The position numbers and the translations under genes were made by a program. Below, piece by piece: positions 7,561 through 47,642 of a stretch of 64,000 nt of DNA. Location: contig OY756146.1 of NCBI GenBank assembly GCA_963576785.1, forward strand, positions 992,001 to 1,056,000. Reading direction: 5' to 3'. Every line of letters starts with the position of its first letter. The first letter of the stretch is position 1. The stretch is from Chlorophyllum brunneum. Its lineage: Eukaryota > Basidiomycota > Agaricomycetes > Agaricales > Agaricaceae. The notes below the pieces were generated by a model, which did no database searches, was not told the DNA's origin, and worked only from the letters and a program-made list of their open reading frames with translations.

Positions 7561-7668
7561 TTTTAATATTCGAGTTGATCCGAAAAGTTGGGTCTATTAG
7601 GAAACCGCATATTGCAACACACACGTAGAATCATTAAATAAAATGGGGACGAGCATCTGCGTGGGTAG

Positions 7669-11390: not shown

Positions 11391-11458
11391 ACAGATAGAT
11401 GGAATTAGTCACAGAGCCCAACCTACATCCATCAGAAGCAATGAAATGGTACACAACC

Positions 11459-11901: not shown

Positions 11902-13293
11902 CTTCTCCTAGCTCAAAGTATGATATGAATCAAGCACCAAACTGAATAGGTAAATAATTGCAACATCATTGGAATTTAACAGTATCCAGACTTTTTGTAC
12001 AGATGTCTGTTATAATCTTAGTCTAGGACTCAGGTTGCAAGTCTTTGGATAAAGACAAGGAAATAAAGAGAAGAGAAAGAGATGATACAATTGGTAAAGT
12101 GTAAGGAATACATCAAGTATTACTATACTTTATATACTAGTGGTGGGTACTAAGAATAAGGGAACAGAGTAAAGGAGTCATAGGGGACAAGTAGGACAAG
12201 TCAGAAAGGGTACAGCCATAAGGGATGAAACAGGAGATGAAATGGATATGCAAGAATAATGAGTATGACAGGCATATGATAGGAATGTAGTGTCTATCTA
12301 TAGTTCATAACAATGTCAGCAGGGTTCTTTTCAGACTCCACATAAAATGGTTCTATTTTGCCTATCTCAATGAGTTCACAGATGAAGTACCAGTGAATTA
12401 CGACATGTTTAGATTGATGTTCAACAACTGGGTTAGAAGCCCAGAAGGTTGATCCTAGATTGTCACATATGAGATGTAGAGCAGGCTACTTGAATTCAAT
12501 CTCACCTAGTACCTGATAAATCCAAATCAGTTGATGAGATATCTTGCACATGGCAACATACTCAGCTTTTGTGGATGACAGCACTGTGGTGGCTTGTCAG
12601 CAACTCAACCAGAAAACTGGTCTATCGGCAAACAAGACTAGATTACTGGAAGTAGACTTACATATAGCAAGACATTCCACAAAGTCAGAATCGGAGAAGC
12701 CTTGAATGAACTTCTTTGATTACCCATTAAAGACAAGGCAATAGCGTCATATGCTCAGAAGGTAGCAGCACAAGCTAGGCCAGCTTGCTTAAGGCCATAC
12801 AATGCTTTTTGTAACCTCCACACTTTATTATGTCCAAAAAATCCTTCTGGTTGTTCCATGAAGATTTCTTCATCCAGATCACCATATAAATAGGCAGTTT
12901 TTACATCAATGCTTTTGATCTTCCAGTCTTCAACTGCTGCTAAAGAGAATAGGAGACAAGAAGTTTTGTAGCAGACAACTGGAGAGAAAAGCTCATTGTA
13001 GTCAAGACTTTCCTTCTGTGAGAAACCTTTTGCCACTAGTTGAGCATGGTAATGACCATCTGACTTAGTGTTAAAGACCCATCTATTTTTGACAATATTA
13101 ACACCCTTGGTAGGGCAGTCTACTAACTTATACACATTGCATTTCCTGAGTACATCAAGCTCCTCAAGGCATGCCTTAAGCCATTTGTTGTACTCAGCAG
13201 GTGGCAACTTGGCAAGGTCCTGAAATTGGACCAGCTGTGGTGACGGAGAAGTTGCACTGGCCTTAGAGAGGCAGTAATGGATCAACTCCATAC
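11902..13293 (-). pseudogene. Copia E pol, RT to RNase H part (broken)
   Basis: Minus-strand 3' half of a Copia polyprotein. From 13289 down it reads WVFNTKSDGHYHAQLVAKGF, KSIDVKTAYLYGDLDEEIFM and LQKALYGLKQAGLA, the classic Copia reverse transcriptase blocks. An internal deletion near 12760 removes the YVDD region and joins directly to the RNase H part. A solo Gypsy LTR interrupts it at 12008-12312. The 5' half of this element is now at 32079-36411 in opposite orientation (see findings). At 13293 it is cut by Gypsy A, with CATAC as the flanking 5-mer. Confidence 0.85.
12008..12312 (-). mobile_element. Solo LTR of the Gypsy A/B/C family, with TSD ATGTC
   Basis: Begins TGTTAT and ends TTCATAACA, 305 bp, same family as the LTRs at 13294, 19383 and 45237. 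It is flanked by a perfect 5-bp duplication ATGTC at 12003-12007 and 12313-12317. The uninterrupted Copia site is visible at about 31296-31310 in Copia D, confirming the insertion point. An LTR-LTR recombination has removed the internal part. Confidence 0.92.
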
Positions 13294-13595
13294 TGTTATG
13301 AACTATAGATAGATAGTACATTCCTATTATGCACCTGTTGTACTCAGTATCCCAGTGTATCTGTTTCACCCCTTATCTCATCCCATATGGCTGTACTCCT
13401 ACTAACTCATTCTATTCATCACTATGACTCCTTTACTCTGTTCCTTTATTATTAGCACTCACCACTAGTATATAAAGTGTAGTAATACTTGATATATTCC
13501 TTACACTTTACCAATTGTATTATCCTTTACTCTTCTCTACTTCTTAGTCTTTATCCAAAGACTTGCAACCTGAGTCCTAGACTAAGGTCATAACA
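13294..13595 (+). repeat. Gypsy A 5' LTR
   Basis: 302 bp, TGTTATGAAC to TCATAACA. Contains TATATAAAGTG near 13469, a likely promoter element. The sequence just inside (TTTGGTAAAGTGTC) is the same in A, B and C and should hold the primer-binding site, but I cannot match it to a tRNA by eye. Confidence 0.9.
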
Positions 13596-14009
13596 TTTGG
13601 TAAAGTGTCATTCAACTCACCTTGCAAGAGAGATGCCACTATTCATAGCTAGGCTTGGAATAATAGCCTCCAACCAGGACGACAGTATATGAGCAACAGT
13701 AGCTCATCAAGAACACCAAGAAGACCAAGAGCTCCGAGACCAACAGACATCCAGGGATCACCAGTAACCACCAGATCCAAACAACAAACAGAACCAGATA
13801 TCCCTGAAGACCTTAAGCAATAGAAATCCAATCACAGCATAGACAAAGACACAGCTCTTATCAAGACCCTATTCAATACAGAAATTGCTGAAGCCACATC
13901 CAATATAGAAATTTCTGAGACTTACAAAAACAGAGAATCCGAAACATCTGATATAGAAGTTGCTGAAACCCACAAGAATGAATACAGTAAACTAGAGACA
14001 GAATCAGAA

Positions 14010-14900
14010 ATGGCCAATAAAATCAACTTCCCAAAGAACCTAGCCCCAGAACCAGGATACTTCAATGGAGATAGAACCAAGTTTGATGATTGGTGGAGAG
14101 CAATGTCCATATAGACACTCTTCAACAAGATCAACAATAATGAACAGAAGATAATTGGAGTATTAGCACAAATGAAAGAAGGACTAGCAGGTCCTTACAC
14201 TAATGCCAAATTACAGACAATTCAAGACAAGAAAACACCAGCATTTGATGACTTTGCAAAGGAGATGGTAGCTATTTTCTCCTTGGGAAATAGGACAGCA
14301 ATAGCAGAAGGGGAAATCAAGTTGTTCAAATAGGAAAAAAGGAACACCATAGACTTCTTAATAGAGTTCAAAGCATTGAAAACCCAAGCAGGAACAGATG
14401 ATGCACATGCCATATTCCTTCTCAAACAACACACCAGAGCAGATATCATCCAAACCATAGTAGGCTATCCATCAGCCTCAATTCCAGATACATACAATGG
14501 ATGGAGAAACATAATCCTTGTAGTAGGATAGGGATATGAAACCATAGATATTTGATGAGGAGATGTCAGAACCAGTACTGGAGTCACATATGGAGGTGGA
14601 GGACAACGACAACCAATGGAAATTGGTTGACAGAAAGCAGACACTGATCAGAATGGCAAACTGAAATATTTCAACTGCAACCTATACAGGTATATTGCCA
14701 AATATTGCCACAAGAAGATGAAGGTCACATACACCAAAATAATATGCTATAATTGCAGCAAACAAGGCCACATCTTGAAGAGTTGCAAAACACCAAAGAA
14801 AACACATATTAGAGAGGTTACCAAGGAGACTGAGCAAGAACAAGAGGCAAAGGAGGATTTTGCCAAAGGCTCAAGTAGGTGCAAACCCATAAGCCAATAA
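14010..14900 (+). pseudogene. Gypsy A gag
   Basis: Capsid-nucleocapsid frame. From the ATG at 14010 it runs in one frame to the stop at 14898, broken by several stops (for example in place of Trp or Gln near 14115 and 14331). Visible parts are GYFNGDRTKFDDWWRAM, a capsid-like stretch, and one zinc knuckle CYNCSKQGHILKSC (CX2CX4HX4C) near 14745. A lysine/glutamate-rich tail follows. B and C lack this gene. The true start may lie upstream. Confidence 0.8.
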
Positions 14901-14914
14901 ACCTAGAGTTCCTG

Positions 14915-17900
14915 TTTTACTTCACAATAGACGATATGTAATTCCACAGAAACAGAACTTGACATGTGAACTTCTCCTCGATTCAACAATTAGAACAAAG
15001 AAGGGACCTAAACAAATCACCATACTGGTAGACTCTGGATGCACCCACACATGCATAGCACAGAGAATAGTAGAAGAAGAACAAATTACAACCAAACCCC
15101 TCGAAACCCTGATATGAGTAATCAACACCAATGGAACCAAAAACAAGAAAGGAGAAATAACAGACATGGCACAACTGGTACTGAGCAATGGAAAACACAC
15201 AGAAGAAATCAAAGCAATGGTAACACAACTGGAGAGTACAGACCTATACCTTGGACATGACTAACTAGTCAAACACAACCCAGAAATTGACTGGACAAAC
15301 AACATAATATACTTCAATAGATGTCCAAAGGATTGTACCATACACCACCACAACATATGGTTCAATGAGAGGATATGCATAGTAAATGAATACATAGAGA
15401 AAAAGAAAACTAACCAAACAAACCCAGAAGATCTACTGACATATCTACAGCAATATATGCACCTGTTCAATAAGAAAAACTTTGACAAACTACCAGAACA
15501 TACAATATGGGACCACAAAATAAACCTATCAGATGACACACCACCAGTACTATAGTCCAAAGTCTACCCAATGACATTAACAGAAAAATAAGAACTGCAG
15601 AAATTCCTTAATAAGAATATCACTTCAGGACAAATTCAACTATCACAGTCCCCCTACACTATCCCATGCTTCTTTATACCCAAGAAAGATGGAACTAAAT
15701 GACTAGTACAAGACTATAAAAAGCTAAATGAATACACAATCAAAGACAAGATGCCACTTCTGCTTATAAGCAAAGTTATCGACCGACTCAAAAATGCAAA
15801 AGTCTTCAACAAACTTGACATCATCTGGGGATACAACAATGTCAGGATAAGGGAAGGCAATGAATGGAAAGCAGCATTCATGATGAACAATGGACTATTC
15901 AAACCAACAGTCATGTTTTTTGGAATGAGTAACTTGCCAGCAACATTCCAAAGGATGATGAACATGGTCTTTCGAGAGATGCTACACAAAGGAGCAGTTG
16001 TCAACTATATGGATGACTTTGTCATCCCTGGGACCACACAACAAGAACTTGAAGACAGGATGAAATGGTTTCTCGATATCACAGCAAAACACCAACTGTA
16101 CTTCAAGAGATCAAAGTACTTATTTGATGTGAAAGAAATACCTATATTAGGATTTGTGGTTGGACAAAGCAGTATCAAAAAGAGGAGAAGAAGGTGAAAG
16201 TAGTGAAAGAATGGCCAACACCCAAATCCCTAAAAGACATCAAGAAATTCCTAGGATTTGCAAACTTCTACCAATAATTCATACATGACTTCAGCAACAT
16301 AGTAGCCCTATTACATGAGTTGAAGAAAAAAAAACACACAATGGGTATGGACAGAGTGACAGCAACAAGCCTTCAAAAAGATCAAGGAAAAAGTTACAAG
16401 CAAGCTGGTACTAGCAATGCCACAAGACAAGGGACAATATAGAGTAGAAGTGGAAGCATTAGGCGATGGAGTAGGAGTGGTACTATTACAAAAACAGAAA
16501 GAACATTGGTATCCAATTGTATTCCACTCAAGAATAATAACACCAGCAAAACAAAACTATCAGATCTATGATAAAGAATTACTAGCCATCCAAGAAGCAA
16601 TCAAAACCTGGAGACAATACCTACTCAATGCCAATAAACTATTCAAAATCTGGACCAATCACAAAAACCTGGAATATTTCCAAAAACCACAACAACTTAC
16701 AGATTGACAAGTGAGATGGCAGATAGAGCTACAAAAATACCATTACATACTGAAACTCATCCCCAGAAAGACCAACACAAAAGCTGATGTTTTATTGAGA
16801 TTAACAAAAACTGACACCATACAAGACAATACTGATATCATACTACTACCAGACCACTTATTTGAGAACAACACAATTACTGCAATCCAACAAATTTGGG
16901 AAATCTCAGGAGAAGAAGATCTGAAACACAGACTATGAAAGGAAACAAAAAGGGAAACACAGTGGCTGAAGGAAAAGGAGAAACGACTAGAGGAGATATA
17001 GGAGACAGATGGAGTACCAATATTTGAAGGAAGAATATATGTCCCACCCAATAGCCAAATACAACAGGAAATACTTCAACAACACCACAATGAGACAGAT
17101 GTGGGACACCCAGGATAACACCAAATGATTGAACTCCTTAAACGGAGTTATTGGTGACCTTAAATGTACAACAATGTCAAATGATATATCAGAGGGTATG
17201 AGGCATGCCAATAAAACAAAATACTCCAAACAAGACCAACAATACATCTTCACCCATTACCAATACTAGCAGAACCTTGGGAAGAAATATCAATTGACAT
17301 GATAGGACCATTACCTGAGTCAGAGGGATATGATACAATACTTGTCATAGTTGATTGTTTCAGCAAAATGATCAGACTACGTGCAGTTAACACAACCTTA
17401 ACATCTGAGGAGCTAGAAGATATCTACTGAGATGATATATAGAGAACATATAGAATACCCTGCAGAATCATCAGTGACAAAGGTCCACAATTTGCATCAA
17501 AATTCATAGCAGAACTATGTTGAGCAACTGGCACCCAACAAAACTTATCCACGGCATACCACCCACAAACCAACAGTCAAACAGAGTGCATCAACCAAAA
17601 AGTCAAGACATACCTCAGAAACATAATAAACCATATGTAGAACAACTGGAAAAAATAGTTAGCTATAGCAGAATTCCAATACAATGACAAAATCCACACT
17701 GCTACTGGATATTTGCCATTCAAAATAGTTTATGGACAATACCCCTAGAAAGGAAATATAACTAATGTTACCAAAGCACCTGCAATCACAGAACAAATAC
17801 AGGAGTTACAAAACATGCAACAAGAGGTGATCAAGATGCTACAACACAGCCAGATGCAAATGGAGAAATGCAACAGCACCAAACCAGAACATGAGTATAT

Positions 17901-18363
17901 TCCAGAAGAACAAGTGTGGCTCAAAGCCAGCAACATTAGGACAACAAGATCAACCAAGAAGTTAGATCACAAATGGTATAGACCATTCTGAATAAAAGCA
18001 AAAATAGGCAAAACAAGTTACCAACTGGAATTATCTGAAACATAGGCAATACACAATGTGTTTAACAGCAGACTCCTCTTCCCCTATCAGAAACCTGAGT
18101 TTGACAGCCAGTGCACACTACCACCACCAATGCCTGAGATCATCAACAATGAAGAACAATACAAGGTAGAAGAGATCCAAGGATACTACATAAGAGGATG
18201 GCAAAATCAATTCCTAGTATACTGGAAGGGTTATACCTCTGAGGAAGACACATGGGAGGATGAGTCAGAACTGGAAAATACCAAGGAGGCAGTTCAGGAA
18301 TTTTTAGACAAGATTTCGAGGACAAAACCTATAAAAAGGGGGGGCAAAAAGCAACAATTATGA
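14915..18363 (+). pseudogene. Gypsy A pol: protease, RT, RNase H, integrase, chromodomain
   Basis: Protease motif VDSGCTHT near 15028. Reverse transcriptase from about 15540 with LDIIWGYNNVRIREGNEWKA, FFGMSNLPATFQRMM and an intact YMDD (near 16005). RNase H follows from about 16400 (IYDKELLAIQEAI). Integrase has IDMIGPLPESEGYDTILVIV near 17295 and AYHPQTNSQTE near 17555. The chromodomain at about 18150-18330 reads YKVEEIQGYYIRGWQNQFLV then YWKGYTSEEDTWEDE. Many stops (TAG, TGA) and some frame changes, so not translatable as one protein. The chromodomain probably directed insertion to marked chromatin. Confidence 0.9.
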
Positions 18364-18400
18364 ACAACAAACCTCACATTACAAGAGATCACTACACCTG

Positions 18401-19339
18401 ATGCACCTCACACTGTATCCACTGTACCCTAGACTTTACCAATTATCTCCACAACATACCATGCATGCCAAACACAAACCTATCCCCTTCCCAGCCAATA
18501 ACACAGAGTTTGAACAAGAACTCAACAACCTCCTCAATGTCCGATCTACCAAAGACCAGATCAAACACTATACTACCACAACCAAAGGACTCATGTACAT
18601 CACCCATGCCATCAACAACCTCCAAATCCAAGCCAAAGCCCCAAGCCATATTTTACTCATCATTACTACCAGAGCTCTCCCAGCTGCCATGTCAACTGGA
18701 AAACACAAACTCATGAAGGAATTATTGGATAAAGCAGCCACCAATCTCAATGTATTGGTATACTCCAATGCAAAGTGATGCATCCAAAGTGCCTTAATCA
18801 TGACAGGCAAAAGACTCAATCACCTCACTGATTCTAGCAACAACCCTACTTACAGACTTGCCCAAAGACTAATGGATCTTGACTCATACACCCCCACTAC
18901 CTTACCCAACAAACTGCCCTACCACAAAGACAATGAACAAGAATGGTTAGATAAAGGAATGGAAGGAATCAACAAAGTAGTCCCAGACCATTTAATGGAA
19001 CCAGATATGTGAGATAAAGTAGACTACCTCCTTATACAACTGCCTAACATGGATCCACCATCCAAACCAACAATATTTAATCTACCACCATCTTATCTCA
19101 CACTCAAGGATAGAGGACAATTTGAAGAACACTACTAGGAGGAGATAGTTCACAACCTTGTCATCTCTAAGACTAATGATATCACTATATTCCAAGGACG
19201 CACTGTAGCCCTCTTTAGAGGAGGACAAGACTATGCCCCCTTTTGGATCAGATGTCAATGCAAGTCAGGAACCCCAATGATTGGCCCTACTAAACGCCAA
19301 CTTGTCAATACCTTACACAAAGAACAAGACGACAAGTAG
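18401..19339 (+). pseudogene. Gypsy A extra ORF after the chromodomain (ORF3), 312 codons with three stops
   Basis: Reading frame in the sense direction between pol and the 3' LTR, from ATG 18401 to TAG 19337. Internal stops sit at 18776 (TGA), 19010 (TGA) and 19136 (TAG). The TAG is TGG in Gypsy B. The frame is 312 codons in A, B and C alike. Visible text includes HAKHKPIPFPANNTEFEQEL, LIITTRALPAAMSTGKHKLM and ALFRGGQDYAPFWIRCQCKS. I recognise no domain. It may be an accessory protein or a captured host fragment. Confidence 0.7.
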
Positions 19340-19367
19340 ACCATGACACTTTATGGGGTCATGAACA

Positions 19368-19687
19368 TAAAAAGGGAGGTATTGTTATGAACTATAAATA
19401 GATAGTACATTCCTATCATATGCCTGTCGTACTCAGCATTCCTATGTATCTGCTTTATTCCTTGTTTCATCCCTTAAGGCTATACTCTTACTGACTTGTT
19501 TTACTCATCCCCTATGACTCCCTTACTCTGTTCCTTTATTATTAGTACTCACCACTAGTATATAAAGTATAGTAATACTTGGTGTATTCCTTACACTTTA
19601 CCAATCATATCATCTCTTTCTCTTCTCTCTACTTCCTTGTCTTTATCTAAAGACTTGCAACCTGAGTCCTAGACTAAGGTCATAACA
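19368..19687 (+). repeat. Gypsy A polypurine tract and 3' LTR
   Basis: Polypurine tract AAAAAGGGAGGTAT at 19368-19382, then the LTR 19383-19687 (305 bp). This LTR is nearly identical to the 3' LTR of Gypsy C and more different from its own 5' LTR, which fits the proposed exchange. Confidence 0.9.
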
Positions 19688-21637
19688 ACTATGAAAGGTA
19701 CAAGCCTTTTGGTCAGCCTAGATGAGGACAATGGAATCCTAGCCAACCTAATGCCCCCTCCAGGTCTTGGTGATTGTATTCCAGGAGAGAATGGGTATGC
19801 ACCTAAAAGGCCACAACCTCCTCTACCAGCACATGAGCAGAATATTGACATTGATTTGCCCATGCTTGAGCCAAGTGAGGAAGAGCTTTGCCAATTGATT
19901 CACAAAGGTGGTATGGAGTTAATCCATTACTACCTCTCTAAGGCCAGTATAACCTCTCCATGTCTTAGCCAGTCCAATTTAGGGACCTTGCCAAGTTGCT
20001 ACCTACTAAGCATGATGATGTACTCAGAAAATACAACATATATGAGTTAGTTGACTGTCCTACCAAGGGTGTTAATGTTATAAAAAACAGATGGGTTTTC
20101 AACACTAAGTTAGATGGTCATCATCATACTTGACTGGTAGCAAAGGTTTTCTCACAGAAGGAAGGTCTCAACTATAACAAGCTTTTCTCTCCAGTTGTCT
20201 GCTATGAAACTTCTTGTCTCCCATTCTCCTTAGCAGCAGTTGAAGATTGGGAGATTGAAAGCATTGATGTAAAAACTGCCTATTTATATGGTGATCTGGA
20301 TGAAGAAATCTTCATAGAACAACTGGAAGAATTTACACTTGGACACAATAAAGTGTGGAGATTACAAAAAGCATTGTATGGCCTTAAGCAAGCTGGCTTA
20401 GCTTGGTAGTGCATGATGACAAAGTCACTGCTTGCCATAGGCTTCAAGTGATCTTTATTCAATGCTGGAGTATATTATAATTGCTGTCCAAAGACTGGCT
20501 TGATTATAATTGCCCTTGTCTATGTCAACAATATTGTCTTCATGGGCAAGAAGTGTCCCTTCTACTACCAAATGAAGAAAGACTTCATGGAATAATGGGA
20601 ATGTTATAACCTTGGAAAAATAACTGAGTTTCTTGGCATGACACTCTCACAGGACCAGAAGGACAAGCAGATCTACCTTCCTGCCCTATAAGGGTACCAT
20701 TAACCCTAAGTTCTGTTAGAAGTACTAACAACTTGTTGGATTCCTGATAGATCTTATGATTGGCTCATGACCTAATATCACTTATGCCATTGTGAAACTT
20801 AGTTAGCAGATGGTGTTTTCCAGCACAGTAACATACAGTAACAGATGGATAATCTGACTTACTGATATAATAGTTAGTTAATTGTGAAGTTACTAAGTGA
20901 GTTGCTGTTAGTCAAGTAGAGCAAGGATAGAGATCGAGTAGATTGTCTAAGGAAACATAAGAAAATATATGCTACATTATATACTAAATGTCTGGGTAGC
21001 AAACTCTAAGACCTATGAGTAATAACTATACATAATGAGTCAGTAATAACTATGAAGTTCCTTGAAACACTGTGATATCATCAGTGGTGTCCAGTAGCAT
21101 AATTGGGGTGACAGGGATCAGTCAGCTCATGAAATACATGAGGAAATGATGCATAATGTGAGTTAGAGGGTACAGCCTCAATAACAAATATTGGATGAAT
21201 AATATACTGAAGAGCTAGTTACATGGAATATAGCTTAGAAAGTACAAATAACAACAGATAGCTAGTCCTTCAGAAGAGTATTACAAGCATAGTTTATACT
21301 TGTGCTGCTATCTTCTGAGTACACAATACTATCACCTCATCTTTAACAGGCAATCACAGAAGTCCATTCAAGATTTCTCTGATTCTGACTTTATAGGATA
21401 TCTTGCTATACATAAGTCTACTTCTGGCAATCTAGTCTTGTTTGCTGATAGACCAGTTTCCTGGTTGAGTTGCTGACAAGCCACTACAGTGCTGTCAACC
21501 ACAGAAGCCAAGTATATTGCTATATACAAGACATCTCATCAACTGATTTGGATTCATCAGCTACTAGGTGAGATTAGGTTCGAACAGCCTGCTCCATATC
21601 TCATATGTAACAATTTAGGATCAACCTTCTGGGCCTC
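19688..21637 (+). pseudogene. Copia D pol, RT to RNase H part
   Basis: Plus-strand Copia remainder right of Gypsy A. RT blocks: VINPRWV-like KNRWVFNTKLDG near 20065, ESIDVKTAYLYGDLDEEIFI near 20256 and LYGLKQAGLAW near 20376. The catalytic YVDD reads YVNN near 20520, so it is dead. RNase H text VLSTTEAKYIAIYKTSHQLI starts near 21490. Stops are frequent. A solo Copia LTR interrupts at 20814-21256, and LINE L1 at 21638. Begins with ACTAT, the 5-mer that pairs with ATAGT at 40826-40830. Confidence 0.87.
20814..21256 (-). mobile_element. Solo Copia LTR inside Copia D
   Basis: 443 bp in minus orientation, TGTTTTCC to ATAACAACA, same family as the LTRs at 31414 and 32079. Flanked by GATGG (20809-20813) and GATAG (21257-21261), a target duplication with one change. 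Copia D coding sequence resumes directly after it. Confidence 0.85.
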
Positions 21638-21760
21638 ATCCCTTCTTGGACTTGTACCACCACCATCGATTTGTGAAACTCAATTATATGGTATCAGTCT
21701 ACAGTACAAAGGATACATTTCATGTCTGCATTACATTCTAATCTCTCTCTGAGAGAGACC

Positions 21761-23863
21761 ATGCCTGACAGTGACGGGAAAATCTTTGGGAACACACCAT
21801 GTGTTCCAGCCCCTCCATCTTTGTGGCCTCTGCGGCTCTGCCCCCTCCTGGCGTCCTGTTTCCTAGAATGCCATCTATGACTAGGCCTTTTGTCCCCACA
21901 GACCAGGCCTACAGTAACACTATCCCCCTGTTGGTTCTCAGCAGAAAACCGTCAACACCCCCGATGTTCTCGGTACCCCTCGCTAGTGAAGAGGACATCG
22001 GTCATCCAAATGAGTAAGGCCAGAGGGTGACCACTACTACTCAGGAAAGGACTGGGCCAATCAAGTAGTAGAAGAAGAATTGAAGCCCAAGGTAGAAGAT
22101 GCTGAAGACGGCCATGAAGGTGGACCAGAGGAGTTCTATGATGATGCTGTTAGGGAGGTTGGTAAGATCTCTGAGTGGGTCAAGGCCTGTAGCATGTTTA
22201 ACATGAGTGGTAATGAAGGACTTGCATTTGGGTGGGCCTTCACTGAACTAACGGGGACCCTGATGAAGGCAGGATGGCTCAAGGTTGCCATTGACAAGCA
22301 GAGAACAATCTCCACAGTTGGATGGGGGTCAATTTTGGTAAGATTACTGTCTGCGCTGAGGAAACCCCCCAGCCAGACGTTTCCTCCCTTTAACGCGTAG
22401 CCTCCAAAGGCCCCACGCGCAAACCTGACAATATCTGCATGGAGGTTGTTGAGCACATTGTCACTCTGGGTATCACCGATGGCAATGAAGTCATTCATTT
22501 GGGCATCTCCGATGATGACGTGCAAATGATCACCGAGGTGGAGTTCAAGACCATCGTTCATAACAAGAAGCATAGGGTTTGGAAACCCAAAGGAGCGGCC
22601 ATGAAGACTGCCACTACCGGGCCGAAGACATCAAACCCTACCCCCCCACCTGTGCCTGCCAAGGCCACCAAAACTATGGTGTCCCATCCCAAGGTCACCA
22701 AAAAACCTCAGGAAGGCACAAAAACTTCCTATGCCGCAGCTACGGCCAAAGGGGGTAAGAATTCCACTTCCACTCCCACTTCTACTGGGTGCAACCCTCT
22801 CAAGTTTGCGAGCAAATTCCCAGAATTATCCCATGAAAAGATAGTAGCAATGTATGATGCCGCTTTCTTCTCTTCCTCCCCCACAGACAACAAAAAGCTG
22901 GCTAAGAAAGCTGGTGTTATCTGCTCTACATTGAATAGTCCCTCGCACAAGCAAGTCATCATTCCTCTCCTTACTGGGCCTAACGTTTCCAACTTCGGGG
23001 CCATTATTGACTCTCTCAATGCCTGTCTCATAGTGGAGAAGTCCAAGACTAGGGTCATTGCCACCTCGCAGGGTAAGCTGGGCCTCATGGTCCACACCTC
23101 GGAGGTGTTGACCCCCATGGAGCTCGAGGTCATCAAGGCATGGCTCAAAGAGAAGTTCGGAGGAATTACTACGGGTGACATATCCCTCCCCAAATCCAAA
23201 TCGTTCGTGAAAGTCACGGACGTCAGCTACATCATGCCCTGAGGACAGGTCCTCACTGAAACCAATGTTGTTACTAGCATCCGGAACTCTATCCACTTGG
23301 ATGCTATCCAATTTGTGACACAACCAAGAGTGTGACGCAACTCCAAGCACTCAGACACCTGCACAGTGTGGTTCGAAATCTGGGATTCCAAGGCGGGGTC
23401 CAACATCGCGAAGATTGAGGACAAGTTCCTCAACATCTATGGAGGTCTCTTCTGCATCAAAAGGGCCAATGCCAACCCTGGAGTTCCATTTTGCGCCAAG
23501 TGCTGCAGATGGGGCCACCCTCTAATCCAATGCCATGCAAGACTGTTTACCTGCATGCACTGCAAGGGTCCCCACTCCACTGCCAATCACCGCACATTTG
23601 CCTACTGCTGCAAGGGCAACGACAAAGTAGACCCACCCATCACAGCCACCCCCTCTGGAGAACCATGCTCCCACAAGGCTATGTGCTCCAAATGTGGCAA
23701 GGATCACCTTGCTACTGACCGTAAATGTCAGTTCTGGAAGAAACGATTCAACCACAATTGGCACGCCAATAAAGCACTCGAACTAAGAGCCAACAAAAGA
23801 GTCCCACTGCCCCCCTCCTCATCATCCCCAGCTAGTCAAAGCCAGACTAACCCCCATCAATGA
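21761..23863 (+). pseudogene. L1 ORF1 (Gag-like, zinc knuckles)
   Basis: Begins MPDSDGKIFGNTP, then shifts frame near 21815, 22015 and 22330. Well preserved from 22439 (MEVVEHIVTLGITDGNEVIH) to a stop near 23240, then 23366-23863. An acidic region near 22080 (EDAEDGHEGGPEEF) and a Thr/Pro/Lys-rich linker near 22600 precede an RNA-binding-like core. Three zinc fingers follow: CAKCCRWGHPLIQC (CX2CX4HX4C), CMHCKGPHSTANH and CSKCGKDHLATDRKC. The last codon overlaps the ORF2 start as ATGA at 23860-23863. Confidence 0.85.
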
Positions 23864-27887: not shown

Positions 27888-28210
27888 ATCCTTTTCTTTT
27901 TCTCTTTTTCTTATGCTCTCCCGGTTATGGATTTCATTCTCATTTCTCTATCTCTCCTTTCCTTGCTCGTCTACTATTTTATATAGTTTTCATTCAATGT
28001 CCATCATTCCCATGGTGTCTGGGCAAAAGCCCTCCTACATGCTAGTACCGTTCATTGTTCTCTCTTGTGTTTGCGAGTTGATAGTTTCTTTCTATCAATT
28101 TCTCTCTTTCACTCTCTCTCTCTGAATTCCTCTCATTCCTTTTCCCTCCATTCAACTTAGGTACCAAATATCTCTATAGTGTATGCACTAGATGGCATCG
28201 AGTCTTGTAG

Positions 28211-28212
<2 letters not shown>

Positions 28213-28245
<33 letters not shown>

Positions 28246-31031: not shown

Positions 31032-31171
31032 GAGTCTCGTAGGGTTAGTATATGTTTAGTCTACTTTCCTTGCTCTGAACATTCTGTATGTTCTACCTTT
31101 GTATGTATGTACACACAGACTGCATTCGAGCACCGCTATATAAATTGTTGAATTAAAAAAAAAAAAAAAAA

Positions 31172-31857
31172 AACCTTCTGGGCCTCCAACCCAGTTGTTG
31201 AACATTGGTCCAAACATATCACAATTCACTGGCATTTCATCTGTGAACTCATTGAGACAGGCAAAATAGAACTATTTTGTGTAGAGTCTGAGAAGAACTC
31301 TGCTGACATCTGTATGAAAAGTCTGGATACTGTTAAATTCCAACAATGTTGCAATTATTTACCTATTCAGTTTGGTATTTGATTCATATTACACTTTAAG
31401 CTAGGAGGAGTGTTGTTGTCATTTGTGCTTTCTAAGCTGCATTCCATGTGACTAGTTCTTTAGTATATTATTCATCTAATATTTGTCATCGAGGCTACAC
31501 CCTCTGACTCACATTATACACCTTTTATTCATGTATTTCATGAGCTGACTGATCACTGTCACTCCAATTATACTACTGGACACCACTGATGATATTGTAG
31601 TGTTTCAAGAGACTCCATAGTCATTACTGACTCACTATGTATAGTTATTACTCATAGGTCTTAGGGTTTGCTACCCAGACATTTAGTATATAATGCAGTA
31701 TGTATTCCCTTATATTTCCTTAGACAATCCACTCAATTCTTCTACCTCACTCTACTTGACTACACAGCAACTCACTTAGTTCTTTACCATTCTAACTAAC
31801 CACTATCAGTAAGTCAGATTATCCATCTGTCACTGTATGTTACTGTGCTGGAAAACA
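31172..31857 (+). mobile_element. Copia D 3' end: RNase H tail, polypurine tract, 3' LTR
   Basis: After L1, Copia D resumes with the last RNase H codons (TFWASNPVVEHWSKH) and an in-frame end near 31380. A polypurine tract AAGCTAGGAGGAG precedes the LTR at 31414-31857 (444 bp, TGTTGTC to GAAAACA). The LTR contains a TATATAATG-like string near 31688. This LTR abuts 221 bp of other DNA and then Copia E's 5' LTR. Confidence 0.85.
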
Positions 31858-32078
31858 CACTTGACTTGGACCCCTGATAAGCAGTAATCAACAGATGTTG
31901 TTTCTAATGCAATGCATGGTTGGTGGCCATCAAGAGTTGCACAAACTTACTTTCAGAGCCTGTATTTGAGCAGATATCATTAGTGGGAAGTTTTATATGG
32001 TATTGCTGGATAATAGCAAAGTTGTCAGAACAGCTATGTGGTACCCAGCTCATAGTAACTTCCTCTCCGAGTAGGTTG
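31858..32078. other. 221-bp spacer between Copia D and Copia E
   Basis: The only DNA between the two Copia elements. It ends in GGTTG (32074-32078), the target duplication of Copia E. No open frame, no family recognised. If the proposed inversion is undone, its GGTTG end lies next to the GNAT relic across Copia E, so it may be host DNA. Confidence 0.5.
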
Positions 32079-32521
32079 TGTTGTCATTTGTACTTACTAT
32101 AGCTACATTCCATATAACTAGCTGTTCAGTATTATTCATCTAATATTCATCATCAAGGCTGTGCCCTCTGACTCACATTATGTACTATTTCCTCATGTAT
32201 TTCATGAGCTGACTGATTGCTGTCACTCCAATTATGCTACTGGACACTGCTGATGATATTGCAGTGTTTCAAGGGACTCTGTAGTCATTACTAACTCATT
32301 TTGTATCATTATTACTCATAGGTCTTAGGGTTTGCTACCCAAACATTTAGTATATAAAGCAGCATGTATTCCCTTATATTTCTTAAGACAATCTACTCAA
32401 TTTCTACTTCATTCTACTCAACTCACAGCAACTCTTATTAGTACTTCACCATCCTACTAACCAACCTATCAATAAGTCAGATCATCCATCTGCTACTGTG
32501 TAGATACTGTACTGTTCAACA
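32079..32521 (+). repeat. Copia E 5' LTR (443 bp)
   Basis: TGTTGTC to TTCAACA, same length as its proposed partner at 11459-11901. Contains TATATAAAGCAG near 32350, a likely promoter. The following GGTTATGGGCCCTGG is the primer-site position but I cannot assign a tRNA. Confidence 0.88.
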
Positions 32522-35500
32522 GGTTATGGGCCCTGGATTGCCTGCTCTCCATGTGCCATGACTGGCTGCAAGTGGGTTGTAGATATGCTGATCTAACCAG
32601 TCCTGTAGAGCATAGTCTTTCTAGCCCATCCCTCTAACATGACTCAATCATTTCATGCTCTATTGAAGGCTTCCTCATATGGGTTCATAGCTTGAACAGT
32701 ACAGTGGTGCAGATCTGATCACTAATTAAGTCCATTTTTAGACTACAATGTCTTCTCCCATCTCTGTAGTACTTAGCTCTATCCCTGTTCTCTCTGGTAC
32801 TGCCAATTATAATGAGTAGGCAGACTGGATGTAGGATGCCCTTGCATTGGTCTCTGCTGACAGGACTTCTGTAATCAGTGATGAGTTCTTGCTGATACCA
32901 TTGTTGCAAATACACACTTTTGTCCCCACCTATGCAATTGTCCCCTCTTCTACAGGGCAGGAGGCAATTAAACATGCTGTATGCATTCACATGCATTACA
33001 TTGTTTACTTGATCATCAAGAGTAAACTTCCTGCTGAGATGATCAAAGGGAATCTCTCTGATGTCAACAGTATGTGGGTGCATCTGTACACTGCATATGA
33101 CCTAGAGTCCATTTTCAGCCTCTATTTCAAGTATGTTGAGACAATTTACTTCCATCTCCATCCGAATGAGGACCCCTCCAGCCTAATCACCAAGCTTGCT
33201 GTTCTCTACAAACAGCTTGATACTAATAGCAATTGTGCCATACCCAAAATCATCAAAGTGATAACTCTTCTCTCCAGCATCCCAAATGTCTGGAACATCA
33301 TCACTCTCTTCTTAATGGTAAACACTCAGATCTTTGCCATGACCTTTGCTTCAGTCCACAGAGCAATTATGAACCACTGGTCTATGCTTGGAGTAAACCA
33401 GCAGGTAAATAAATTCTCTGGTATTAAACCACAAGGCATGTCCCCTCGCTATCAGGGGTAGCAGCAGTATAGTTCCCTATAGAAGCAGCAGTACCCAGGG
33501 CAGCAGTCACGCCCTCAGCAGCAGCCTTAGGAGGAAGGAGAGAAGAATAAGAGGCAACACAGAGCAAGGGGCAGCAGCAAAGGCCAAGCTAATGAGGTCA
33601 ATGCTGGGTAACTAGCTCCCTCTAGAAATGACACCAGGCAACCGGCATACATGATGGACTTGGTCAACTTTGGCTTTGCCAAGTTGACCACTGAACCAAA
33701 GAAGAGTACTTGCAGCCTCATCACTGTGGTACAGTCCTCCACCCCTCTTCCTTCTTCTCTTCTCTTATGGATGACAAATCCTGCTGAGAAGAAATCTCAA
33801 GATCTCTGGTGCCGCCCAACTCTGTATGTGGCTACCAAGGCAGAAGCCTTAGATCTTTATGAGAAATGCATAGGAAACACTTCCCTCCCCTATCTGGCCT
33901 CTCCTCCAATGGCTGCCTCCATTATGGAGGTTGATGAGCTATTTGGTACCACTCCAGCAGCCAAACTGGTCGTGAGCATTCCAGCTCCAACTGCCATCAA
34001 GATGGATGAGGATGCAGTGTTGATAGGATCTGAGAACAAGGACTACTCAGACAAAGCAATGGTAGATAAGCCAAATCTTGCTAGCTTTTCACACAAATCT
34101 GAAGATTGCTGCAGGAGTATTATATGCATCACTGATGTCCAAGGAGACTCTTGACTGTGTGCACAGAGTACAACCTCAGCCAATATAGATTCTTGGATAA
34201 ATAGCTGGACTAATTATGTACATGCACAATTATGTAAATCTTCAGAAATAATATTTTCTCCTCTATTTTCAAGAGTGAAGAATATGTGTGAAATAATACA
34301 TAGCTGCAGTAGTGTATGTGGATGTGCAATGAATAGGTGACCCTGTAAAATGAGCAATAAATAGCTTTTGGACTCCAGTGCCTCCCTCAATATTACTCCA
34401 AACAAAAGGGATCTTATTAATATTGTCGAAGGTTCTTTTGGATTGGCACAGATTGCAGATGGAGCCACCCTCTTTATTAAATCCTATGGTACTGTCTATT
34501 TAGAGACAGAAGTAAAACTTGAGTCTAGCAAAGTTCAGCAGCATACTTTGCACCTTCACCTGGTATATCACATACCAAAGTTAGATATGAGACTTCTCTC
34601 AACTGGATCCATCATGGATAAAACTGGTCTGATTGCAGAAATGTCAAATGGGAAGACTGTCATTCATGACATTTGTGGTAAACCATTCCTGAGCAGATAG
34701 TGTTGCCAGAGTGCTTCTTTAAACCAAGTTCACTTTGTGAACATATGCATCTTATGTGATGGAGATCTTCAATTCTCTTTGGCTTTGATCAACAAAAATA
34801 CCACATCCTATGATATCTGGCATTGAAGATTCACACACCCATCCGATCAGGCTCTGGGTTACATGCCAAAACACATGGAATCTGTCCTAGTACTTCTATC
34901 AAGAGAACAGAAGGTTTGCTCTGGTTGTGCACCTAGAAAGCTGCCAAACAAGGCCTACCATGAGAATACATCTTGTGTATCCAAGATCCTTGAATTGATC
35001 CATTTGGATCTTCAGGAGCTCCCCATTGTTTCTTACCATAAGTTCAAATGGGTTATGTTCCTTGATGACTACTCTTCCTCTGCGCATTTTTTTCTTACAC
35101 AATAAGTCAGATGCTACATGTACCTTCAAGGCATATGCTGAACTGGTGACAAACCAGATAAGCAAATGCATCAAGCAGGTGTGCTCTGATAATAGAGGAG
35201 AATACATATCTCAGGAACTCAAGGACTACTTTGCTGAGAAAGGAATCCTTCACGAAACAAGTGTGCTACACATTCACCAACAGAATAGGTGTGCCAAACA
35301 TCTAAATCAAACACTTCTAGAAAAGGCACAATCTATGCGACTTGAAGTATGCCTTCCAGCTAGCTACTAGGAGTTTGCTTTCAATATGGCTGCTCATGTC
35401 TATAACAGAACACCTATAAAGCATCTGAAATGGGTCACTCTTATGAGACATGGTTCGGAAGGAAACCTGATGTTTCTCATCTCTGAGTGTTCGGTTGTGG

Positions 35501-36411
35501 GGCCTATATATACCTTCCTAATGAGGTGTGGCAAGATAAACTTGTGCCTAAATCAGAATTGATCTTCATCAGTTACACAGGTAATGGCAGCAATTTCAAG
35601 TTTATGCACTATTAGTGGAACAATTCTATCTTTGTCTCCCCCTATGCTGTCTTCAATGAACTCTACGTTTCCAGATGTCCATCACAGTCTAAACAACAAG
35701 GCCAATTGCTGCCTAATAATAGCAATTCAAATGATCAAGATGGATTAAATCCTCCTCCTTCTGGAAACAGGTTTGTTCCAAGACCATTTAGTCCAAGTAT
35801 GCCACATGTTGGATCACTGCCACTGCCTCCTCATCCACAAACTCCTATTCCTAGTCCTAGAGAGTAGACTCTGTCACCTCTGCCTTTTTTCTTTTCTAGA
35901 GGATCTTCTCCCAGATTATCCTATAAGGATCCGACTCTACCTCCCTTTCTACCTATGCTGTCTCAGCCTCCAGGAGGAGTTAAGGTTGAGGATGATGTTG
36001 AGGAGGCTGCACCTGTGCGTAATCCACATGCTAACAACTGGGCTTCTATACCCATTCCAGAAGGGATCTTTATTCCTCATCCAGACATTGAAGCACCAAG
36101 AAAACTCCATGATCAAACTACTCTTCAGGTTCCATGGAGAGAAGGAAATGTCTATGGTAACCACCAACACCCAAAGGATAACCTTAGGGACTATGAAAAG
36201 TACAAGCCTTTTAGTCAGCCAAGATGAGGACAATGGAATCCTAGCCAACCTAATGTCCCACCAGGGCTTGGTGATTGCATTCCAGAAAAAAATGAGTATG
36301 TACCTGAAAGGCCACAACCTCCCCTATCAGCACATGAGCAGAATATTGATATTGATTTGCCCATACTTGAGCCAAGTGAGGAAGAGCTTTGCTAATTAAT
36401 TTGTGAAGGCA
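32522..36411 (+). pseudogene. Copia E gag-protease-integrase part
   Basis: One frame broken by stops. The ATG near 32750 starts MSSPISVVLSSIPVLSG, a Copia-type gag. Gag continues with MIKGNLSDVNSMWVHLYTAY. A Gln-rich stretch near 33480 follows. The protease motif reads LDSSAS near 34370 (normally DSGA). The pre-integrase zinc part is HRRFTHPSDQALGY-like near 34830, with CSGCAPRKLPNKAY. Integrase core: IHLDLQELP, FLDDYSS, CSDNRGEYISQELKDYF near 35190, with a frameshift near 35100. A proline-rich linker and EEELC at 36385 lead toward the RT. The element then stops at Gypsy B, with GTATG at 36412-36416. Confidence 0.88.
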
Positions 36412-36754
36412 GTATGACCTTAGTCTAGGACTCAGGTTGCAAGTCTTTGGATAAAGACTAAGAAGTAGAGAAGAGTAAGGGATGATACAATTGGTAAAGT
36501 GTAAGGAATACAGTAAGTATTACTATACTTTATATACTAGTGGTGAGTGCTAATAATAAAGAAACAGAGTAAAGGAGTTATAGTGACAAATAGAATGAGT
36601 CAGTAGGAGTACAGCCATACGGAATGAGACAAGGGGTGAAACAGATACACTGGAATGCTGAGTATGACAGGCATATGATAGGAATGTACTGTCTATCTAT
36701 AGTTCATAACAATACCTCCCTTTTTATGTTTACAACCCCATAAAGTATTGTGGT

Positions 36755-37693
36755 CTACTTGTTGTCTTGTTCTTTGTGTAAGGCATTGACAAGCTGATGT
36801 TTGGTAGGTCCAATCATTGGAGTTCCTGACTTGCATCAACATCTGATCCAGAAGGGGGCATGGTCTTGTCCTCCCCTAAAGAGGGCTACAGTGCATTCTT
36901 GGAATGTAGTTGTGTCATTAGTCTCTGCAGTGACAGGATTGTGTACTATCTCTTCCCAGTAGTTTTCTTCGAACTGTCCTCCATCCTTGAGTGTGAGGTA
37001 AGATGGTGGCAGGTTAAATATCATTGGTTTGGATGGTGGGTCCATGTTGGGTAGTTGTATAAGGAGGTGGTCTACTTCATCTCACATATCTGGTTCCATT
37101 AAATGGTCTGGGACTGATTTGTTGATTCCCTCCATTCCTTCATCTAACCATTCTTGTTCATTGTCTTTGTGGTAGGGCAGTTTGTTGGGTAAGGTAGTGG
37201 GGGTGTATGAGTCAAGATCCATTAGTCTTTGGGCAAGTCTGTAAGTAGGGTTGTTGCTAGAATCAGTGAGGTGATTGAGTCTTTTGCCTGTCATGATTAA
37301 GGCACTTTGGATGCATCACTTTGCATTGGAGTATACCAATACATTGAGATTGGTGGCTGCTTTATCCAATAATTCCTTCATGAGTTTGTGTTTTCCAGTT
37401 GACATGGCAGCTGGGAGAGCTCTGGTAGTAATGATGAGTAAAATATGGCTTGGGGCTTTGGCTTGGATTTGGAGGTTGTTGATGGCATGGGTGATGTACA
37501 TGAGTCCTTTGGTTGTGGTAGTATAGTGTTTGATCTGGTCTTTGGTAGATCGGACATTGAGGAGGTTGTTGAGTTCTTGTTCAAACTCTGTGTTATTGGC
37601 TGGGAAGGGGATAGGTTTGTGTTTGGCATGCATGGTATGTTGTGGAGATAATTGGCAAAGTCTAGGGTACAGTGGATACAGTGTGAGGTGCAT
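36755..37693 (-). pseudogene. Gypsy B extra ORF (ORF3)
   Basis: Same 312-codon frame as in A and C (ATG at 37693, TAG at 36757-36755) even though its 3' third is the diverged segment (about 10 of 70 residues differ). Two TGA codons are shared with A and C. The third stop of A and C is an intact TGG here (QFEENYWEEIVHN). The lack of frameshift across a diverged stretch suggests it once coded for protein. Confidence 0.7.
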
Positions 37694-37730
37694 CAGGTGT
37701 AGTGATCTCTTGTAATGTGAGGTTTGTTGT

Positions 37731-40420
37731 TCATAATTGTTGCTTTTTGCCCCCCCTTTTTATAGGTTTTGTCCTCGAAATCTTGTCTAAAAATTCCTGA
37801 ACTGCCTCCTTGGTATTTTCCAGTTCTGACTCATCCTCCCATGTGTCTTCCTCAGAGGTATAACCCTTCCAGTATACTAGGAATTGATTTTGCCATCCTC
37901 TTATGTAGTATCCTTGGATCTCTTCTACCTTGTATTGTTCTTCATTGTTGATGATCTCAGGCATTGGTGGTGGTAGTGTGCACTGGCTGTCAAACTCAGG
38001 TTTCTGATAGGGGAAGAGGAGTCTGCTGTTAAACACATTGTGTATTGCCTATGTTTCAGATAATTCCAGTTGGTAACTTGTTTTGCCTATTTTTGCTTTT
38101 ATTCAGAATGGTCTATACCATTTGTGATCTAACTTCTTGGTTGATCTTGTTGTCCTAATGTTGCTGGCTTTGAGCCACACTTGTTCTTCTGGAATATACT
38201 CATGTTCTGGTTTGGTGCTGTTGTATTTCTCCATTTGCATCTGGCTGTGTTGTAGCATCTTGATCACCTCTTGTTGCATGTTTTGTAACTCCTGTATTTG
38301 TTCTGTGATTGCAAGTGCTTTGGTAACATTAGTTATATTTCCTTTCCAGGGGTATTGTCCATAAACTATTTTGAATGGCAAATATCCAGTAGCAGTGTGG
38401 ATTTTGTCATTGTATTGGAATTCTGCTATAGCTAACCATTTTTTCCAGTTGTTCTGCACATGGTTTATTATGTTTCTGAGGTATGTCTTGACTTTTTGGT
38501 TGATGCACTCTGTTTAACTGTCAGTTTGTGGGTGGTATGCCATGGATAAGTTTCATTGGGTGCCAGTTACTCGATATAGTTCTGCTATGAATTTTGATGC
38601 AAATTGTGGACCTCTGTCACTGATGATTCTGTGGAGTATTCCATGTGTTCTCCATATATCATCTCGGTAGATATCTCCTAGCTCCTTGGATGTTAAGGTG
38701 GTGTTAACTGCGCATAGTCTGATTATTTTGCTAAAACAATCAACTATGACAAGTATTGTGTTATATCCCTCTGACTCTAGTAATAGTCCTATCATGTTGA
38801 TTGATATCTCTTCCTAAGGTTCTGCTGGTGTTGGTAGAGGGTGGAGATATGTTGTCAGTCTTGTTTGGAGTATTTTGTTTTGTTGGCATATCTCACATCC
38901 TTTGATATACCATTTAATGTTGTTGTGCATTTGAGGCCACCAATAACTCTATTTAAGGAGTTCAATTATTTGGTGTTGTCCTGGGTGTCCTACGTCTGTC
39001 TTATTATGGTGTTGTTGGAGTATTTCTTGTCATATTTGGCTGTTAGGTAGAACATATATTCTTTCTTTGAACATTGGTATTCCATCTGTTTCCCATATCT
39101 CCTCTGGTCATCTCTCCTTTTCCTTCAGCCACTGTGTTTCCCTTTTTGTTTCCTTTTGTAGTCAGTGTTTCAGATCTTCTTCTCCTGAGATCTCCCAGAT
39201 TTGTTGGATCATGGTAATTGTATTATCATCGAATAAGTGGTCAGGTAGTAAGGTAATATTGGTGTTGTCTTGGGTGGTATTGGTTTTTGTTAATCTCAAT
39301 AAGACATCAGCCCTTGTGTTGGTCTTTCCAGGGATATGTTTTAGCATGTAATAATATTCTTATAGCTCCATCTGCCACCTTGCTTGTTGTCCTGTAAGTT
39401 GTTGTAGTTTTTGGAAATATTCTAGGTTCTTGTGATCTGTCCAGATTTCAAACAGTTTATCAGCATCAAGTAAGTATTGTCTCTAGGTTTTGATTGCTTC
39501 TCGGATGGCTAGTAATTCTTTGTCATAGATCTGATAGTTTCATTCTGCAGGTGTCATCATTCTTGAGTGGAATACAATTGGGTACCAATGTTCTTTCTGT
39601 TTCTGTGATAGTACCACTCCTACTCCATAGCCTGATGCGTCTACTTCTACTCTGTATTGTCCCTTGTTTTGTGGCATTGCTAGTACTGGCTTACTTGTGA
39701 CTTTTTCCTTGATCTTTTCAAAGGCTTGGTGTTGTCATTCTGTCCATACCCATTGTGTATCTTTCTTCTTCAACTTGTGTAAAGGGGCTGCTATGTTGCT
39801 GAAGTCATGTATGAATTGTCGGTAGAAGTTTGTGAAGCTTAGGAATTTTTCGACGTCCTTCAGGAATTTGGGTGTTGGCCACTCTTTTACCACTTTCACC
39901 TTCTCCTCCTCCATTTTAACACTACCTTGTCCAACCACAAATCCCAATATTAGTATCTCCTTTGTGTCAAATAAATACTTTGACCTTTTGAAATATAGCT
40001 GGTGTTTTGCTGCAATATCAAGAAATCATTTTGTCCTGTCTTCCAGTTCCTGTTGTGTGGTTCCTAGGATGACAAAGCCATCCATGTAGTTGACAACTGC
40101 TCCTTCGTGTAGCATTTCTCGGAATACCATGTTCATCATCCTTTGGAATGTTGCTGGCAAGTTACTCATTCCGAAAATCATGACTGTTGGTTCAAATAAT
40201 CCATTGTTTGTTACAAATGCTACTTTCCATTCATTGCCTTCCCTAATCCTGATGCTGTTGTATCCCCAAATGATGTTAAGTTTGTTGAAGACTTTTGTAC
40301 TCTTGAGTCAGTCAATAACTTTGCTTATGAGCAGAAGTAGTGTCTTGTCTTTGATTGTGTGTTTGTTTACTGTTGGTCTTGGAGCTCTTGGTCTTCTCAG
40401 TGTTCTTGATGAGCTACTGC
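37731..40420 (-). pseudogene. Gypsy B pol remnant: RT, RNase H, integrase, chromodomain
   Basis: Joined to the leader by a deletion of about 2 kb. RT text matches C, with the catalytic motif YMDG in place of YMDD (near 40075). RNase H piece TKADVLLRL-like near 39300 (ADVLLRLTKTNTTQDNTN). Integrase near 38790-38460 (IVDCFSKIIRLCAVNTTLTS). The chromodomain at about 37940-37770 equals that of A and C. Many stops. Confidence 0.87.
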
Positions 40421-40825
40421 TGCTCATATACTGTTGTCCTGGTTGGAGGCTATTATTCCAAGCCCAGCTACAAATAGTGGCACCTCTCTTGCAAGGTGAG
40501 TCAAATGACACTTTACCAAATGTTATGACCTTAGTCTAGGACTCAGGTTGCAAGTCTTTGGATAAAGACAAGGAAGTAGAGAGAAGAGAAAGGGATAATA
40601 CGATTGGTAAAGTATAAGGAATACACCAAGTATTACTACACTTTATATACTAGTGGTGAGTGCTAATAATAAAGGAACAGAGTAAGGGAGTCATAGAGGA
40701 CAAGTAGAATGAGTCAGTAAGAGTATAGCCTTAAGGGATAAAACAAGGAATAAAGCAGATACATAGGAATACTGAGTATGACGGGCACATAATAGGAATG
40801 TACTATCTATCTATAGTTCATAACA

Positions 40826-41157
40826 ATAGTCCCTAAGAATATCCTTTGGGTGTCAGCAGTTGCTGTAGATATTTTCTTCTCTTTGTGGAACCTGAAGGGT
40901 GGTTTGATCACAAAGTTTTCTTGGTGCTTCAATGTCTGGATAGAGTATGAAAATTCTTTCCAGAATGGGCATGAGAGCCCAGTCATCAACATGTGGATTA
41001 GATGCAGGTGCAGTCTCCTCAACATTATCCTCTACCTCAACTCCTCCTAGAGGCTGAGATGGCATAGGTGGAAAGGGAGGTGGAGTTAGATCCTTGTAGG
41101 ATAATCCTAGAGAAGATCCTCTAGGAGAGGAAAAAGGCAGAGATGATAGAGTTTGCT
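40826..41157 (-). pseudogene. Copia D linker fragment left of the RT
   Basis: Minus-strand Copia sequence aligning to 35880-36200 of Copia E (proline-rich linker, PDIEAPRKL). It begins with ATAGT, the reverse of ACTAT at 19688-19692 where Copia D continues. At 41157 it is cut by the left end of element F. So this is the piece of Copia D just upstream of the RT now at 19.7 kb. Confidence 0.82.
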
Positions 41158-47519: not shown

Positions 47520-47642
47520 CATCCCTTCTTTGACTTGTACCACCACCATCAATTTACAAAAGTCGATTATATGGTATAAGTCTACAGTACCCGGATATAT
47601 TTCATGCCTTTGCTATGTTCCAATCTCTCTCCGAGAGAGACC

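Follow-up and report, generated by a model that had tools for sequence, protein, structure and literature searches.

Among the closest described systems is inversion 2z3 of Drosophila buzzatii, in which copies of the transposon Galileo lie in opposite orientation at the breakpoints, have exchanged their target duplications and are both chimeric, and for which the text consulted concludes ectopic recombination (PMC2775673). Between human and chimpanzee, inversions mediated by retrotransposon recombination are given at 49 loci among 252 inversions in the portion of the study available (PMC2603318). In Saccharomyces, the sections of the report on Cas9-cut Ty1 describe crossover between inverted Ty copies on one arm as turning round the DNA that separates them, and report that non-allelic Ty1 copies undergo gene conversion, with and without crossover; in those sections, four isolates of a single strain, studied in depth, showed no same-arm inverted-repeat recombination (PMC9879454). 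The parts of the reports on Yarrowia (PMC5014426) and Tolypocladium (PMC6367777) covered here hold no exchanged duplications.

The locus described here, in Chlorophyllum brunneum, shows the same three hallmarks as 2z3. It differs in that Galileo, according to the text consulted, is a DNA transposon and the uninverted chromosomes were sequenced, whereas here the elements are LTR retrotransposons, the empty sites come from Copia paralogues and the linkage of one parent comes from a third Gypsy copy, Gypsy C. Similarly, recombination of inverted retrotransposons and chimeric elements are shared with the human and chimpanzee cases, in which non-matching duplications mark the derived state; as described in the available portion, those cases involve L1 and Alu and were found between species (PMC2603318), whereas ours is one case of LTR elements in one genome. 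Further, unlike the induced breaks in the Ty1 sections (PMC9879454), ours would be a natural event between copies that are 12-14% diverged. Overall, inversion by ectopic recombination of transposable elements is a well-known process, of which the present case is a new and unusually well documented example.

The window, meaning the whole stretch of 64,000 nucleotides that was analysed, corresponds to bases 992001-1056000 of contig C8 in a genome of 38.9 Mb in 14 contigs. Ordinary genes with Pfam matches (coatomer alpha/beta'-like, ribophorin II-like and a PSMD3/RPN3-like proteasome subunit) occupy bases 1-11000, and nested retrotransposons fill the window from 11.4 kb on. Gypsy A (13294-19687, plus strand; LTRs 13294-13595 and 19383-19687) carries reverse transcriptase and RNase H domains, and Gypsy B (36413-40825, minus strand; LTRs 40521-40825 and 36413-36711) carries a chromodomain. 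The two are 90.9% alike over 3961 aligned bp, with B missing ~2 kb that is present in A at 13747-15724. Both are decayed, the longest overlapping stop-to-stop frame being 164 aa, bar one frame of 205 aa that starts in neighbouring Copia. The family labels given in the first-pass annotation stand. For Gypsy, reverse transcriptase precedes RNase H in A, the genome copy L030 has RNase H, then integrase, then chromodomain, and B also has the chromodomain; pieced together from copies, the element is of the Ty3/Gypsy chromodomain type, with LTR ends TGTTATG..TCATAACA and a 5-bp duplication (CCAAC at Gypsy C). For Copia, the rve integrase (L022:4172-4660) lies ahead of the RVT_2 reverse transcriptase (L022:4917-6422) in the reference copy L022, the order of Ty1/Copia, and RVT_2 also occurs in the local element Copia E.

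The first-pass annotation had also claimed that the target duplications are swapped between Gypsy A and Gypsy B, and both exchanged pairs were found. As read in the sequence, CATAC to the left of A (13289-13293, plus) is matched by GTATG to the left of B (36412-36416, minus), and ACTAT to the right of A (19688-19692, plus) by ATAGT to the right of B (40826-40830, plus). The third pair claimed, at Copia E, was likewise present, with CAACC outside the 3' LTR (11454-11458, minus) and GGTTG outside the 5' LTR (32074-32078, plus). By a hand calculation that ignores base composition, the chance of three 5-bp matches in this pairing is ~(1/1024)^3. Duplications were also compared, as a control, in five elements at hand, a non-random sample: they are exact in Gypsy C (CCAAC), in a solo Gypsy LTR at 12009 (ATGTC) and in Copia L022 (TTATG), and differ by one transition in Copia L026 (CTGTA/CTGCA) and by two in Gypsy L031 (GACAA/GATGA), so that imperfect target duplications do occur. 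Transitions alone do not relate CATAC to ACTAT.

The four Gypsy flanks were then mapped onto nine distinct Copia copies (L015, L016 and L021-L027), which were chosen from the best genome matches and form a non-random sample; L010-L014, as sub-stretches of L021-L025, were left out of the count. At joint 1 (13293/36416), eight of the nine copies show an overlap of exactly 5 bp between the left flanks of A and B, and in the ninth (L027, which reads TATAC) the alignment is one base short. At joint 2 (19688/40826), seven of the nine show a 5-bp overlap, again exact, between the right flanks. The alignment of the B flank to L022 starts only at 40876, 50 bp short of the joint, and when extended would land 32 bp off, which points to an indel between the start of the alignment and joint 2; in L024 the right flank of B gave no match. 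Within L022, the two flanks of Gypsy A match opposite strands (left, minus; right, plus), a result incompatible with a simple insertion, and Gypsy A and Gypsy B each lie between two Copia pieces that face opposite ways. The 3' part of a second local element, Copia D, and the 5' part of Copia E provide the empty sites for each other's joint, with 79% and 85% identity across. The claim that Copia coding sequence is continuous at the joints was borne out at joint 1, where homology runs through and the phase is kept (with two in-frame stops in 79 codons, on the 5' side), and in part at joint 2, where the sequence is continuous but the Copia D frame is decayed.

GTATG overlaps the apparent LTR of Gypsy B, the end of which reads GCAGTATGACC where LTRs of this family normally end TGTTATGACC. 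Because the Copia copies continue through GTATG, these bases are the target copy and the adjoining outer LTR end of B is 7 bp shorter; the same run of Copia sequence through the five bases rules out the reading of GTATG as LTR sequence of B that matches by chance. The LTR and the target copy each contain a TATG repeat, and slippage between the two probably removed the 7 bp. As a separate observation, the two Gypsy insertion sites are 222 bp apart in Copia coordinates (L022:5485-5711), within the same open frame (L022:4917-6422), a spacing that may reflect either chance or a preferred target.

Copia E is found in two places. Its 3' part (11459-13293, minus; 3' LTR 11459-11901) contains the RVT_2 domain and a solo Gypsy LTR (12009-12313) with ATGTC on both sides, and its 5' part (32079-36416, plus) begins with the 5' LTR at 32079-32521. 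Consistent with the first-pass annotation, both LTRs are 443 bp long; they show 22 differences and no gaps. The best non-self genome match of the 5' LTR was 11452-11901 (95%, the next being 91%; best 40 of 257 candidates), and that of the 3' LTR was 32079-32519 (95%, the next being 92%; best 40 of 260 candidates). Because the two LTRs are reciprocal best matches, Copia E is a single element split into 11459-13293 (minus) and 32079-36416 (plus). Its interior is ~530 bp shorter than that of L022.

Copia D, mapped on the Copia copies, has its 3' part at 19688-31857 (plus; 3' LTR 31414-31857) and a 5' remnant at 40826-41158 (minus) that is cut off at 41158. A solo Copia LTR (20814-21256) and a pair of LINEs, one nested in the other (21638-31172), interrupt the 3' part: the outer LINE covers 21638-28214 with its tail at 31057-31173, the inner one, which faces the opposite way, lies near the 3' end of the outer at 28220-31032, and a target repeat of ~13 bp is present outside the nested pair. 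All seven frames of at least 180 aa that overlap the inverted stretch were scanned for domains, revealing a LINE endonuclease, a LINE reverse transcriptase and a sub-threshold Copia gag, with no domain found in four of the seven; among the frames scanned, transposon sequence alone was recognised. The earlier proposal that flipping the DNA between A and B rebuilds both Copias as whole elements held for Copia E, the split halves of which rejoin, but not for Copia D, the missing 5' end of which (~3.8 kb of L022, including the 5' LTR) had no match of more than 100 bp in 41159-64000. The next 20 kb beyond the window contain one minus-strand Copia LTR split by a Gypsy (L033:7940-8042 and L034:4532-4869; contig C8, ~1.064-1.071 Mb), which is 88% identical to the 3' LTR of D and 92% to the LTRs of E; being closer to E than to D, it is not clearly that of Copia D, and is possibly a displaced remnant. 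A partner for the 3' LTR of Copia D was not found nearby, and its best match in the genome, at 90%, lies on another contig (best 40 of 255 candidates). In the restored order, Copia E and Copia D would stand in tandem, ~216 bp apart. We also note an unnamed repeat (41157-43150) that starts where Copia D is cut off and whose relatives flank Copia L022 on both sides, inverted.

The two LTRs of one insertion are identical at the start, as a consequence of normal reverse transcription. In Gypsy A and Gypsy B, the 5' LTR of A and the 3' LTR of B are 93.6% alike (18 of 19 mismatches are transitions) and the 5' LTR of B and the 3' LTR of A are 93.4% alike (20 of 20), whereas the LTRs within A are 89.0% alike (28 of 33) and those within B 89.3% (25 of 32). 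Because the closer pairs lie between A and B and not within either, both Gypsies are chimeric. Naming the parental Gypsy in Copia E as GE and that in Copia D as GD, A has the front of GE and the back of GD, and B has the front of GD (from 40825 to a near-identical tract) and the back of GE (37141 to 36413). Genome-wide searches, each taken as the best 40 of ~960 candidates, agree with this pairing apart from the identical LTRs of Gypsy C. The 3' LTR of B returned the 5' LTR of A first and its own 5' LTR at row 21, and the 5' LTR of A returned the 3' LTR of B first, with the 3' LTR of A not among the matches listed. Similarly, the 3' LTR of A returned the 3' LTR of C (100%) and then the 5' LTRs of B and C, and the 5' LTR of B returned the 5' LTR of C (100%) and then the 3' LTRs of A and C. 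The bit scores in these four tests, in the order given, leave small margins to the next copies (437 vs 427, 436 vs 432, 461 vs 456 and 461 vs 452).

Next we compared Gypsy A and Gypsy B site by site. They differ at 44 of 453 sites in the first 450 bp of the element, at 252 of 1849 (13.6%) in 15725-17578, at 6 of 292 in 17579-17870 and at 85 of 728 (11.7%) in 18953-19687, while a near-identical tract at 17871-18952 of A (plus) shows 1 difference in 1082. In B the tract corresponds to 37142-38223 (minus; at most to 38515), coordinates that were transferred by hand from the A/B alignments, and the zone in A spans at most 17579-18952. With Gypsy C as the third sequence, B agrees with C at 251 sites and A with C at 1 in 15725-17578, at 5 and 1 in 17579-17870, and at 0 and 1 in 17871-18952; in 18953-19687 the pattern reverses, with B and C agreeing at 2 sites, A and C at 83 and A and B at 2. 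The maximum chi-square was 323 on 344 sites, a value reached by 0 of 1000 shuffles, a test that is generous because the sites are linked. By this comparison, A switches at 17578-17870 and B at 37141, which locates the crossover to a single zone, at equivalent positions of the two chimeras. A switch at the site where a LINE is inserted in Gypsy C, suggested by BLAST segments that end at the LINE, proved to be an artefact, and we no longer assign the LINE any part in causing the switch. The best match of the tract outside A, B and C is 89% (best 40 of 473 candidates). Further, within the tract 115 of 1072 sites distinguish A from L030 (10.7%; 14.9% to the left and 10.4% to the right) and 152 of 1068 distinguish it from L031 (14.2%; 14.2% and 15.7%), so the tract is not a conserved domain; one 150-bp window of A against L030 is low, with 4 differences.

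The mutation pattern was examined in three LTR pairs, those of GE (13294-13595 and 36413-36711), GD (19383-19687 and 40521-40825) and Copia E (11459-11901 and 32079-32521). Of 58 C-to-T changes, 41 stand before A, against a baseline of 36% (p 1e-7), and CG makes up ~1% of C dinucleotides, a bias before A that we take to be like repeat-induced point mutation. The tract shared by A, B and C shows at most one change. LTR divergence is 5.0% (22/443) for Copia E and 6.4% for GE, although Copia E must be older than GE; with the order of the nested ages thus reversed, LTR divergence serves poorly as a clock at this locus.

Overall, the results support the claim of the first-pass annotation that the DNA between the two Gypsies was inverted by recombination between inverted copies, since opposite orientation, exchanged duplications and chimeric elements were all found, and they narrow its estimate of 17-24 kb to ~18-21 kb, with the ends within 17579-18952 and 37142-38515. 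GE would have inserted into Copia E at CATAC, and GD, in the opposite orientation, into Copia D at ACTAT, at a time when the neighbouring Copia E and Copia D were in like orientation. GE and GD would then have undergone a homologous crossover, within the equivalent of 17579-18952 in A, that flipped the ~18-21 kb between them, joining the front of GE to the back of GD in A and the front of GD to the back of GE in B, exchanging the target duplications and splitting both Copias. The event appears to be recent relative to the insertions. This reading draws on the sequence itself, that is, on the exchanged duplications, the Copia continuity at both joints, the chimerism and the near-identity tract, and the trace is very probably true of the chromosome.

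Gypsy C (45237-56468, plus; LINE inserted at 47520-54318), the 5' half of which resembles B and the 3' end A, is flanked on both sides by its own CCAAC and is therefore an independent insertion. Its two LTRs are 20 transitions apart, and each is identical (100%) to the corresponding GD LTR (the 5' LTR of B and the 3' LTR of A). Because this exact match exists despite a separate target duplication, C and GD were homogenised LTR to LTR; conversion involving Gypsy C almost certainly took place, and its LTR divergence is no guide to its age. In the restored order, Gypsy C and GD face each other across ~2.3 kb. Gypsy C thus appears to be an in-genome witness of the uninverted parent GD, in which the front of B is linked to the back of A. 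The tract shows 0 differences from Gypsy C in A and 1 in B; given that the tract matches C in both elements and that C matches GD at both ends, the simplest account is that a break in GE was repaired from GD. We therefore consider it reasonably probable that GE was broken and copied from GD, a polarity that depends on Gypsy C, itself homogenised with GD, and the tract would be a conversion tract of 1.1-1.4 kb from the same event as the crossover.

An alternative that is compatible with a real inversion is that the identities among A, B and C stem from later conversions (between C and B on the 5' side and between C and A on the 3' side), in which case the tract would neither date nor polarise the crossover. 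Gypsy C does share 100% identical LTRs with both B and A while having its own CCAAC, and the differences are uneven: to the right of the tract, C and A differ at 4 of 735 sites, whereas C and B show 3 differences in ~3700 (or one more, counting the right-hand target copy of the LINE in C), so that a later conversion between B and C is possible. However, two events with different partners would be needed, whereas a single conversion suffices if it took place between C and a still intact GD, ahead of the inversion, and we regard later conversions as a possible but rather unlikely source of these identities.

We also considered that the order might be an assembly phase error, in which a short GE/GD conversion without crossover left 1.1-1.4 kb of identity that the assembler failed to bridge, so that the stretch between was misoriented. 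The near-identical tract is a place where an assembler could switch, and the assembly does stumble nearby, outside the inversion and to the right of Gypsy B, where the only N run in the window, a 200-N gap at 43384-43583, has unmerged ends (41498-45469). Its flanks, 41498-43383 and 43584-45469, are identical over 1886 bp at 100%. Since these identical bases surround exactly 200 N, neighbouring contigs were left unmerged and the apparent ~1.9-kb duplication is false, which rules out a biological tandem duplication at 41498-45469. L029, on contig C5, likewise holds 200 N within near-identical repeats. In contrast, Gypsy A, Gypsy B and the DNA between them lie in one N-free stretch (1-43383), and the assembly runs unbroken through repeats longer than the A/B tract, namely Gypsy B (~3.7 kb, 3 differences from Gypsy C) and the 5' half of Gypsy C (2283 bp, 1 difference from Gypsy B), suggesting reads or links longer than the tract. 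A LINE query, used as a further test of assembly read length, gave no near-identical copy elsewhere, none exceeding 89% besides itself among the best 40 of 426 candidates, and so does not bear on the question. We consider a phase error improbable. It is highly improbable that Copia fragments already rearranged received independent insertions of Gypsies that template switching had made chimeric during reverse transcription. For mosaic LTR elements of Schizosaccharomyces, the text consulted proposes recombination of chromosomal copies or in reverse transcription (PMC10085805), but here this would leave the three exchanged duplications, the opposite-facing Copia flanks and the split of Copia E unexplained, and the closer LTR pairs would be expected within A and within B, not between them as found.

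With the crossover between GE and GD as the preferred reading, one sequence would carry nearly all of the traces of an inversion: the empty sites, the exchanged duplications, the chimeric products, the crossover zone and a copy of one parent. A natural exchange between copies 12-14% diverged would be readable as to crossover position, tract length and polarity, and the case shows how nested retrotransposons may be decoded without a relative. The general view of how inversions arise is unchanged. It is conceivable, if doubtful, that A, B and C form an inverted-repeat set that is still recombining, with conversion maintaining 99.9% identity in stretches of A and B and of B and C. The ~20 kb separating A from B could then still flip, as perhaps could the ~2.3-kb spacer that separates B from C. 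If so, both orientations would be expected within the species or even within one culture.
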